Shown: piece after piece, positions 43,681-60,484 of the stretch
Layout of the letters: every line of letters begins with the position of its first letter
How positions within the stretch are numbered: position 1 is the stretch's first letter
Source of the DNA: [Synechococcus] sp. NIES-970
Lineage (GTDB): Bacteria > Cyanobacteriota > Cyanobacteriia > Cyanobacteriales > MRBY01
Length of the DNA stretch: 64,000 nt
Assembly: GCA_002356215.1 (NCBI GenBank)
Contig: AP017959.1
Span: 372,001 to 436,000, forward strand
Reading direction: 5' to 3'
Made by a program: the position numbers and the translations under genes
Notes under the pieces: generated by a model
What the model saw: the letters and a program-made list of their open reading frames with translations, nothing else
The model's database searches: none
What the model was told of the DNA's origin: nothing

Positions 43681-43720
43681 CGCTTCTAAATTAATTCTGT
43701 TTTAGGGACAAAATTCAACC

Positions 43721-45373
<1,653 letters not shown>

Positions 45374-57599: not shown

Positions 57600-58094
57600 T
57601 TATCTAGAAATAATCTCTGCCTGAATTTGAGCGATCGCCTCCGTAACTGTCTGGACGCTATGCCACTGACCAGGGGCAATTACTCCGAAAAAAGCGGCAG
57701 TTACTGGGGTAGGCTGCCAAAAAATCACGGGCTTGTGCTGCTTGAGGGCAAGAGCAATCTCTGAGGCTGTCCCCAACCCCATGCCCACTGCGATGACAAC
57801 AGTCGCACTGAGGATATTTACATTGTTTCGACCTTGGCCTAAATCCGTACAGATCGAAATATCGACCCCTGGAGCAATTTCTTTATCATCTGGCCCCGGC
57901 AAAATTCCTACCGTTAGCCCCCCTGCTCCCTGGGCACCTGCCGTGGCCGCGGCCATCACGCCGCTATTTCGGCCTCCTGTCAGCAGAACCCAGCCCTGCT
58001 GGGCGATCGCCTGACCAAGATCGTAGGCGGCGCCCAAATCTTCTGAAGTGGCCCCAGCCCCCGGTCCCATCACGCCAATCATAATTCTGGGCAT
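57600..58094 (-). CDS. TIGR00725 family (LOG-like Rossmann) protein
   Basis: A 164-residue protein from the ATG at 58094 ([15 protein letters not shown]). The pattern resembles the LOG/DprA Rossmann fold: GWVLLTGGRNSGVMAAATAGA (about residues 34-54), NNVNILSATVVIAVGMGLGTASEIALAL (about 91-118). A nucleotide or nucleoside-monophosphate binding role is inferred. Its start overlaps the recR stop by one base (TGATG), so it is translationally coupled to recR. Confidence 0.8.
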   Translation of the reverse strand: MPRIMIGVMGPGAGATSEDLGAAYDLGQAIAQQGWVLLTGGRNSGVMAAATAGAQGAGGLTVGILPGPDDKEIAPGVDISICTDLGQGRNNVNILSATVVIAVGMGLGTASEIALALKQHKPVIFWQPTPVTAAFFGVIAPGQWHSVQTVTEAIAQIQAEIISR

Positions 58095-58687
58095 CAATCT
58101 AATTCCCGCCGCCCTTCCAGAGCCCGCGCTAGGGTGACTTCATCGGCATATTCCAAATCGCCACCCATGGGTAGACCAAAGGCAATGCGGGTCACTTTTG
58201 TAAACGGTCGTAGCAATTGCGCCAGGTAAAGGGTTGTGGTTTCTCCTTCGACGCTGGGATTAATCGCCAAAATTACTTCCTTGGTTTTTTCGGCACTCAC
58301 CCGCTGCACTAGGGCTTGAATGGTTAACTGTTCTGGGCCAATGCCATCCATCGGCGAAATCACGCCCCCCAGAACATGGTACCTACCATGATATTCCCGA
58401 GTTTTCTCTAGGGCGATCACATCTTTCGAATCTGCCACCACACAGATCACTGCCTGCTCCCGCTGGGGGTTACGGCAGATATCACAGATAGAAGTGGCCG
58501 ACAGGTGAAAGCATTTTTGACAAACCCCCACCTGCTTTTTGGCATTTAAGAGGGCTTGGGCAAAAGCTTCCACGTCTTTTTCGGGTCGTTTGAGAATGTG
58601 TAACGCAAGGCGCTGGGCACTTTTGGGGCCGATACCCGGCAGACGCTGGAATTGTTCGATCAGGCGGGCGAGGGGGGGCGTATAAAT
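58094..58687 (-). CDS. recR: Recombination protein RecR, apparently starting at ATT
   Basis: RecR (about 197 residues) works with RecFO to load RecA. From an ATT codon at 58687-58685 the frame reads (I)[19 protein letters not shown], exactly the family N-terminus with its helix-hairpin-helix. It is followed by the Zn finger ([16 protein letters not shown], about residues 57-72) and Toprim domain ([17 protein letters not shown], and [12 protein letters not shown]). No ATG, GTG or TTG lies between that codon and the upstream stop (TGA, 58708-58706), and GGAGG lies 8 bases before the ATT. The first conventional start (GTG at 58573) would remove 38 residues. AUU starts are known for infC and pcnB; a sequencing error is possible. 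Confidence 0.85.
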
Positions 58688-58753
58688 GGCGAGTTCCTCC
58701 GGCAGTCAGGACGATTTTTCGAACCTTTATCTTAAAGGGCGATCGCCTCTGGG

Positions 58754-60484
58754 TTAATAGTGAGTCCCCGATTTCCGGTGATGGATCGCCGTCATGCCGT
58801 TGTTTTGTAGCACTTTACCCTTATCGGTAGTGGCATAGATCACCCAGTGGTCGCCGCATTCCAGCCGATTCGCGACGGTGCATTCGAGATAGGCCAAGGC
58901 ATCGGTCAAAATTGGGCAGCCATTGTCTGCGGTTTCGGTGGCCACCCCCACAAAGCGGTCTTCTCCAGGGGCAAAGGGCTTGAGAAAATGCTTCATCAGC
59001 CCCAGGTGATTCCCTTCCTGGAGGACATTGATCACAAAATTTGTCCCTTTATGGAGCAATGATTCGATCGCCCGTTCTTTTGCCACCGCAACCGTAAACC
59101 CAGGGGGGGTAAAGGTGGCCTGGGAAACCCAAGATGCCAGCATCGCCCCAGCGAGATTATCCTGTTGGGTCGTGACGATACAGAGGGAGCCCACCAGACG
59201 ACCCAGGGCCTGTTCGAGGTTGTCTGACTGGGAAGTAGAGGCAACATTTTGTTTGGGTTGCCGCCGTTTGGCTGCTTTTTTGATCGCCTGGGCAAAATCT
59301 GTGCCCGTTTCTTCGCAGGTTTTGAGGGTTACTTCGGTGGGTTTAAATTTAACGCGGATCGGCTCGAAGCCCATCTGATAGCCGGCATCGCGGAATTTTC
59401 CTTCCAGCAGATCGATCGCCTCGCCGCTCCAGCCAAAGGAACCAAACACCCCGGCCAATTTATTTTTATCGGCATTGTTGAGGACAATCCCAAGGGCCGT
59501 CTGGATTTGGGTTGGGGCATGGCCCCCAAGGGTGGGAGACCCCATAATAAAGCCACTACAGCGGCCGATCGCCTCTTTGATTTCTGTGGGTTCGGCATGT
59601 TCAGCATTAAAGGTTTCTACCATCACCCCAGCTTTGGAAATGCCGTGGGCGATCGCCTGGGCCACCGTTGCGGTGTTGCCATAGGCGGAGGCGTAGATCA
59701 GGGCCACGGAGAGGTCATTTTTCTGCTTTTCCACCCAAGCGCGGTAGTTATTAAAGAGTTCCTGACGGCTGTAGCGAATCAAGGGGCCGTGGCCAGGGGC
59801 ATAGATTTTTGCCGGAATTTCTTCAATTTTGCTGAGGCCTGCGAGGGTTTGGCGGATGGAACTGGCCATCACACAGTCGAAATAGTAGCGGCGGTCTTCG
59901 TCATAAAACTGCCAGCCTTCATCAAAAACTTGGTTGCCGCACACATGGGCCCCAAAAAATTTATCGGTAAACAAAATATTTTCTGCCGGGTCATAGGTGC
60001 AGAGGTGCCCGGGGAAACGGGGGGTCGGCGTCGGGATAAATTCCAGCACGTGACCTTTCCCCAAGTCGAGGCGATCGCCACTTTTGACGATTTCGATGTT
60101 GGGGGTTTCATCCTTAAGGAGATCCTTGAGGGCGATCGCCGCCGGATTTGAACAGACAAAAGTGACTTGGGGGGCAAGTTTCAGCAGCTCCTTGAGGGTA
60201 AAACAACGGTTTGGGTTAGTGTGCCCAAGGATAATGTAATCCAGTTGTTTCAGGTCCGTACGCGTCTGAATTTCTGTTAAGAAGAGTTCGCAGAAGGATT
60301 CTCCTGGGGGATCTAGGAGAGCTGTTTTTTCCCCAATGATCAGATAGCTATTTGCCGTGGTTCCCTTTTGTAGGCCGTATTCAATTTCGAATTTGAGGCG
60401 GTCCCAGGTGCGCGATCGCAGCAGCAGCAGATCGGGACTAATGAGATAGGGTTGGATATCTCTGGGGAGGGTTGCAGCGGCCAT
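58754..60484 (-). CDS. flv1: Class C flavodiiron protein, Flv1 type
   Basis: A 576-residue protein with three domains: metallo-beta-lactamase-like (residues 1-240), flavodoxin (about 260-400, SVALIYASAYGNTATVAQAIA) and flavin reductase (about 430-570). In cyanobacteria the Flv1-Flv3 pair transfers electrons from photosystem I to oxygen. The diiron site is altered: canonical HxExDH is LGHTNPNRC and another His ligand is replaced in PTPRFPGHLC, as expected for Flv1/Flv2 and not Flv3/Flv4. The RSRTWDRLKFEIEYGLQKGT start fits Flv1. It is probably monocistronic. Confidence 0.88.
   Translation of the reverse strand: MAAATLPRDIQPYLISPDLLLLRSRTWDRLKFEIEYGLQKGTTANSYLIIGEKTALLDPPGESFCELFLTEIQTRTDLKQLDYIILGHTNPNRCFTLKELLKLAPQVTFVCSNPAAIALKDLLKDETPNIEIVKSGDRLDLGKGHVLEFIPTPTPRFPGHLCTYDPAENILFTDKFFGAHVCGNQVFDEGWQFYDEDRRYYFDCVMASSIRQTLAGLSKIEEIPAKIYAPGHGPLIRYSRQELFNNYRAWVEKQKNDLSVALIYASAYGNTATVAQAIAHGISKAGVMVETFNAEHAEPTEIKEAIGRCSGFIMGSPTLGGHAPTQIQTALGIVLNNADKNKLAGVFGSFGWSGEAIDLLEGKFRDAGYQMGFEPIRVKFKPTEVTLKTCEETGTDFAQAIKKAAKRRQPKQNVASTSQSDNLEQALGRLVGSLCIVTTQQDNLAGAMLASWVSQATFTPPGFTVAVAKERAIESLLHKGTNFVINVLQEGNHLGLMKHFLKPFAPGEDRFVGVATETADNGCPILTDALAYLECTVANRLECGDHWVIYATTDKGKVLQNNGMTAIHHRKSGTHY

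Follow-up and report, generated by a model that had tools for sequence, protein, structure and literature searches.

A candidate AUU start codon for recR in [Synechococcus] sp. NIES-970, and weak recR starts across the cyanobacteria

Introduction

Which codon starts translation of recR when its frame offers no canonical start in the appropriate place? The question is raised by the window, i.e. the whole stretch of 64,000 nucleotides of [Synechococcus] sp. NIES-970 DNA analysed here, in which no ATG, GTG or TTG lies between the in-frame TGA upstream of recR and the conserved RecR N-terminus. A preliminary description of this DNA proposed that recR starts at an ATT codon (58687) and likened it to the AUU starts that limit expression in other genes. 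ATT is rarely used by cells as a protein start, conserved starts outside ATG, GTG and TTG are rare curiosities (infC, sigR), and ACG and GTT, two codons that recur below, are absent from the start codons of NCBI table 11. Our literature search, which was thin on subscription papers and preprints and is weak evidence of absence, returned no recognised description of a weak recR start. A 2020 arXiv preprint by Gvozdjak and Samanta is said to deal with genes that prefer non-AUG starts, and may list related genes.

Loci, controls and definitions

By protein search, recR was detected in 56 of 60 relatives and, in a sample of the phylum, in 376 of 386 genomes. The 5' ends of 261 loci were examined, comprising 51 search returns, 100 regions picked from the listed matches, 80 named loci, being the best among 533 confirmed, and 30 further genomes. 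Dropping seven loci that were identical over the compared stretch left 254, i.e. 239 in the window's class, which we term photosynthetic from kinship and names, and 15 outside it. We number as position 0 the codon that aligns with the ATT of the window, and a locus was called as having no canonical start if no ATG, GTG or TTG occurred from the upstream in-frame stop to codon +1. Four genes of the window's relatives, infC, recA, recF and rpsB, served as controls with 30 loci apiece, examined over a zone equivalent to that of recR but running slightly further into the gene. A Shine-Dalgarno motif was defined as GGAG, GAGG or AGGA upstream of the start and was scored in 168 representatives. The tree was built from RecR alone (195 sequences), with full-length genes newly fetched for 40 sampled genomes.

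The start region of recR in the window

The recR coding sequence occupies 58094-58687 on the minus strand, with 197 codons from the ATT and a TGA stop (58096-58094). Its product scored 279.4 bits against TIGR00615 (equivalog cut-off 162.55), which identifies it as RecR, and the helix-hairpin-helix, zinc finger, Toprim and C-terminal domains all exceeded their Pfam cut-offs, the zinc finger narrowly (23.6 against 22). The 5' frame on the minus strand reads TGA CTG CCG GAG GAA CTC GCC ATT TAT ACG CCC CCC CTC. The reading given in the preliminary description held in every part: the TGA (58708-58706) closes the frame 18 nt upstream of the ATT with no canonical codon between them, GGAGG (58700-58696) stands 8 nt before the ATT, and CTG (58705-58703) is the only other codon in the interval that is one base from ATG. 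The GGAG is kept within the genus. Downstream, the frame has no canonical codon before GTG 58573, at codon 39. The ATT (58687-58685) is the sole codon that fits both the conserved N-terminus and the GGAGG, and when the same codon was compared in related strains, as the preliminary description had proposed, it was ATT in all six genus genomes found (L001-L006). We consider the ATT to be the best reading of the recR initiator, and one well supported by its sequence context.

Two further analyses bore on the stretch that precedes the first canonical codon. In five of the window's 48 coding-like ORFs, the first canonical start stands 20 or more codons after the upstream stop; of these five stretches that of recR was by far the most coding-like (score 0.34), which we take to be more than chance, with a 100-codon ORF at 43706-44008 as the runner-up (score 0.15). 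When codons 2-38 of the window were compared with those of representatives of the ATT class, differences fell mainly at third positions (0.18/0.06/0.64 for the three codon positions), and this bias implies that codons 2-38 are translated. RNA folding of the 5' region revealed nothing unusual (z 0.49), and a scan of 58600-58900 found no promoter-like site.

The gene after recR (57600-58094, minus strand) belongs to the SLOG cluster 4 family (Pfam LDcluster4). Its ATG shares the A of the recR TGA stop, and its translation may therefore be coupled to that of recR and share the weak start. Upstream of recR (58754-60484, minus strand) lies a gene with ODP-type beta-lactamase, flavodoxin and flavin reductase domains, i.e. 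a flavodiiron protein.

Canonical starts in cyanobacterial recR

Within the window's class, 161 of the 239 de-duplicated recR loci had no canonical start in frame. A canonical codon was present within -3 to +1 in 45, where position 0 is often itself ATG, GTG or TTG, and only further upstream in the remaining 33 (17 within 20 codons, 16 beyond), which could in principle use it. Outside this class, 13 of the 15 loci had a canonical codon at -3 to +1 and two had one further upstream. None of the 120 control loci lacked a canonical start, although these were the best-scoring of 40 to 60 genomes and mostly from one order, and so cover less diversity than the recR set; the nearest canonical start was more than 15 codons upstream in 3 of the 30 recA loci. 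A weak start with changing codons is thus common to most of the cyanobacterial recR examined, a pattern that lay beyond the sight of the preliminary description.

Start-codon classes

The weak start varies by clade, being ATT, ACG before GTT, GTT after AGGAGG or, in the Prochlorococcus group, CTG. Assigned by rule, the 239 loci comprised 87 with ACG at -1, 51 with ATT at 0, 45 canonical, 30 with CTG at -2, 17 with GTT at 0 and no ACG, 2 with ACG at 0 and 7 others. The named genomes of the ATT class include Microcystis (L158, L159, L222) and a Pleurocapsales (L168); those of the ACG-GTT class include Nostoc (L156), Sphaerospermopsis (L152) and one Microcoleus (L185). CTG was found in two Prochlorococcus (L224, L226) and TTG in four others (L227-L229, L231); as the remaining CTG genomes are small and carry one family code, we infer that they are members of the same picocyanobacterial group. 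Canonical starts occurred in Moorena (L173), Microcoleus (L184), Pseudanabaena (L214, L219, L220), Acaryochloris (L199) and a Gloeobacterales (L225).

In 12 strict loci the upstream stop is no more than four codons from position 0, which leaves few candidate initiators. The ATT is confined in this way in L005 (TAG ACC ATT TAT), L120 (TAA ACC ATT TAT) and L122 (TAG CTT ATT TAT), with one other codon available and the conserved Tyr codon (TAT) directly after the ATT in each. Similarly, the sole alternative to ACG is ACA in L054 and L186, the sole alternative to ATC is CCC in L197, and CTG is preceded by TGA ACT in L226, L233 and L235. Of 12 strict GTT loci, 9 were free of ATT, ATC, ATA, CTG, ACG and AAG over the four codons before position 0 (-4 to -1), in a count of alternatives that disregarded any AGG codon within the Shine-Dalgarno motif. 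L088 has ATT at -1 and ATA at 0, and its congeners L090 and L093 have ATG at 0.

Since ACG occurs without GTT in eight loci, it is likely to be used where it is present; in the ACG-GTT class the initiator may be either ACG or GTT. In L031-L050 and elsewhere in that class, the GTT at codon 0 after ACG is nearly invariant, as though constraint acted on both codons, and there are possibly two starts. A separate regularity concerns the codon before the ATT (58688-58690 in the window), which is NCN (Thr, Ala or Pro) in 45 of the 51 ATT-class loci though it should be untranslated, with the middle C conserved in 88% of the 43 representatives.

Ribosome-binding sites

Shine-Dalgarno motifs were present in 84% of ATT representatives (n=43), 100% of ACG (n=53), 93% of GTT (n=14) and 86% of other loci (n=7), as well as in the single representative with ACG at 0, and were rare in the CTG class (5% of 20). 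The spacing is regular, with GGAG-8 nt-ACG in 45 of 53 and GGAG-7 nt-GTT in 12 of 14. Overall, 80% of 138 non-canonical representatives had a motif compared with 17% of 30 canonical ones, an association with p of about 1e-10 by Fisher's test when kinship is ignored. On six supported, phylogenetically independent pairs the link between motif and weak start had the expected direction and was not significant, with an average of 0 pairs against and 3.1 or 3.9 for it (median p 0.25 or 0.125). The motif was present in 10% of infC, 7% of recF, 73% of recA and 100% of rpsB control loci (n=30 each). Several canonical-start recR have short repeats directly upstream in place of the motif (L182, L196, L173, L410); it is as if a better start offset a lost Shine-Dalgarno motif in such genes (e.g. 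L182, L196, L410), which is suggestive only.

Constraint on the start codon

If position 0 held an ordinary Ile or Val codon, synonyms would be expected there. Of the non-canonical loci, however, 56 have an Ile codon at this position, ATT in 51 (codon usage of the same genes predicts 33.4), and 100 have a Val codon, GTT in 98 (28.8 predicted). With representatives clustered at 88% identity the figures were 43 of 48 (28.9 expected) and 61 of 63 (14.9 expected), and none of 20,000 simulations reached the observed ATT or GTT counts, although these simulations treat loci as independent, which even the clustered representatives are not quite. Unlike position 0, the adjacent Tyr, Thr, Arg, Pro and Ala codons are variable. 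Likewise, seven full-length loci that are AT-rich (gene GC 0.37-0.42) retain CTG at -2 yet use it for only 0-2 of 28-29 Leu.

Evolutionary history

The 195-sequence tree requires a minimum of 17 changes between canonical and non-canonical starts, whereas 200 shuffles of the labels never required fewer than 35. In the preferred reconstruction a non-canonical start was gained once at the base of a 176-member clade (with Gloeobacterales outside) and twice later, and canonical starts returned 14 times; a single origin is nevertheless beyond what can be proved by equal-cost parsimony applied to one short protein. Both later gains are single ones, and one of them (L205) is an ambiguous locus. Support for the node of the basal gain was 52, and for an alternative reconstruction, one leaf deeper, it was 91; an earlier tree of 154 sequences gave 8 changes, i.e. 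one basal gain and 7 returns. The regaining of a canonical start in about 14 lineages indicates that the weak start is not indispensable.

Discussion

Initiation at the ATT has to be weighed against other readings of the locus. If RecR were made from the upstream CTG (58705), directly after the in-frame TGA, it would be six residues longer, and CTG is a known weak start; this codon lies upstream of the GGAGG, however, and is not found at that place in L002-L006. Only in clades other than this one does CTG probably serve as the start, at codon -2, and we consider it a very improbable initiator here. The GTG at 58573 (Val39) has in its favour that it is the first canonical in-frame codon, but a short RecR begun there would lose the helix-hairpin-helix domain (residues 7-49, 58541-58669 on the minus strand), part of which would be cut away, so that PF21176 matches the full protein but not the Val39 version, and codons 2-38 evolve as coding sequence; this reading deserves even less credence. 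A sequencing or assembly error, or a decayed gene, would also leave a frame lacking its start, and is a negligible prospect given that the same ATT in all six genus genomes argues against sequencing error, the recR frame and domains are intact, and 161 of the 239 relatives' loci likewise lack a canonical start. C-to-U editing of the start was rejected by reasoning, as it could not make AUG from ATT.

It is also conceivable that the start is real and has simply been tolerated, a strong Shine-Dalgarno motif and a low need for RecR having let any near-cognate codon persist without selection for weak initiation. The use of several different codons, the returns to canonical starts and the non-significant Shine-Dalgarno link on independent pairs are what such tolerance would produce. 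Yet ATT, GTT and ATG are only one or two bases apart, so that canonical codons should be much commoner by now; position 0 is tightly constrained; and rpsB and recA often have Shine-Dalgarno motifs (100% and 73%) but no weak starts. We regard tolerance of this kind as unlikely.

We think it probable, instead, that recR relies on real near-cognate initiation, maintained because selection favours RecR synthesis that is low and possibly IF3-sensitive. The compared loci show an absence of canonical starts in a widely conserved pattern, constraint on the codon itself, and Shine-Dalgarno motifs as a common feature of the ATT, ACG and GTT classes. That ribosomes start at the weak recR codon, that output is low and that selection rather than drift keeps the weak start is what we infer from this pattern, and control of recR by IF3 is speculative. 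In the mechanism that we propose, the AUU at 58687 would be reached through the GGAGG, and the initiator tRNA would pair with two of its three bases. A near-cognate start (AUU, ACG, CUG, probably GUU and sometimes AUC), mostly behind a good Shine-Dalgarno motif, would then cause RecR to be made slowly. AUU, ACG and CUG initiate less strongly than AUG, and IF3 acts against such initiation (PMC5472188). As IF3 rejects near-cognate starts, IF3 and the condition of the initiation machinery probably also influence the rate of RecR synthesis.

The presence of weak recR starts in most relatives suggests that low output, or control at initiation, has long been important. We tentatively put forward a broader scenario, in which a weak-start throttle on RecR could have arisen once near the cyanobacterial base and been kept while the codon turned over (AUU, GUU, ACG, CUG), with the Shine-Dalgarno motif adjusted to hold output low; this would tie RecFOR to IF3 and the state of the ribosome, and would make GUU a true natural initiator in some lineages. 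In most of a phylum, one repair gene seems to have no canonical start, and its weak codon changes by clade, making recR a natural experiment on start-codon strength; whether initiation fidelity controls recombination repair is testable in laboratory cyanobacteria. Weak starts are also likely to lead to recR being mis-annotated or missed. A review lists three cyanobacteria as lacking recR (PMC5101192), and an overlooked weak start possibly lies behind those three absences.

The closest precedents for a weak recR start are infC (AUU) and Streptomyces sigR (GTC/GTT); in the window, recR similarly has a non-canonical start behind a strong Shine-Dalgarno motif, the mark of these IF3-controlled starts, and likening it to expression-limiting AUU starts, as the preliminary description did, seems reasonable. 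E. coli pcnB shares with recR an AUU start, thought to limit its expression, and we know of no report that this start is conserved across a phylum. In E. coli infC, according to PMC5472188, the AUU start serves autoregulation by IF3, and sharing this codon makes recR in the window a candidate for IF3 discrimination. Whereas E. coli infC is regulated by its own product, cyanobacterial infC has GTG as its nearest canonical start in 29 of 30 loci (L262-L291), often after CCT and mostly without a Shine-Dalgarno motif (present in 10%), and because infC uses GTG in these relatives it was rejected as a local parallel. The sigR start, as described by Feeney et al. 2017 (PMC5472188), is a GTC behind AGGAGGTG that keeps output low and is repressed by IF3; it is GTC in 32 of 34 species and GTT in 2 of 34, and its replacement by a canonical codon causes overproduction. 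Like recR, sigR has a non-canonical start behind a strong ribosome-binding site that is kept across species, but the sigR case concerns one genus and was shown by experiment, whereas that of cyanobacterial recR spans many families and several weak codons and comes from sequence comparison. By the precedent of sigR, with its low output, repression by IF3 and overproduction from a canonical start (PMC5472188), we think that recR is held low by its weak start.
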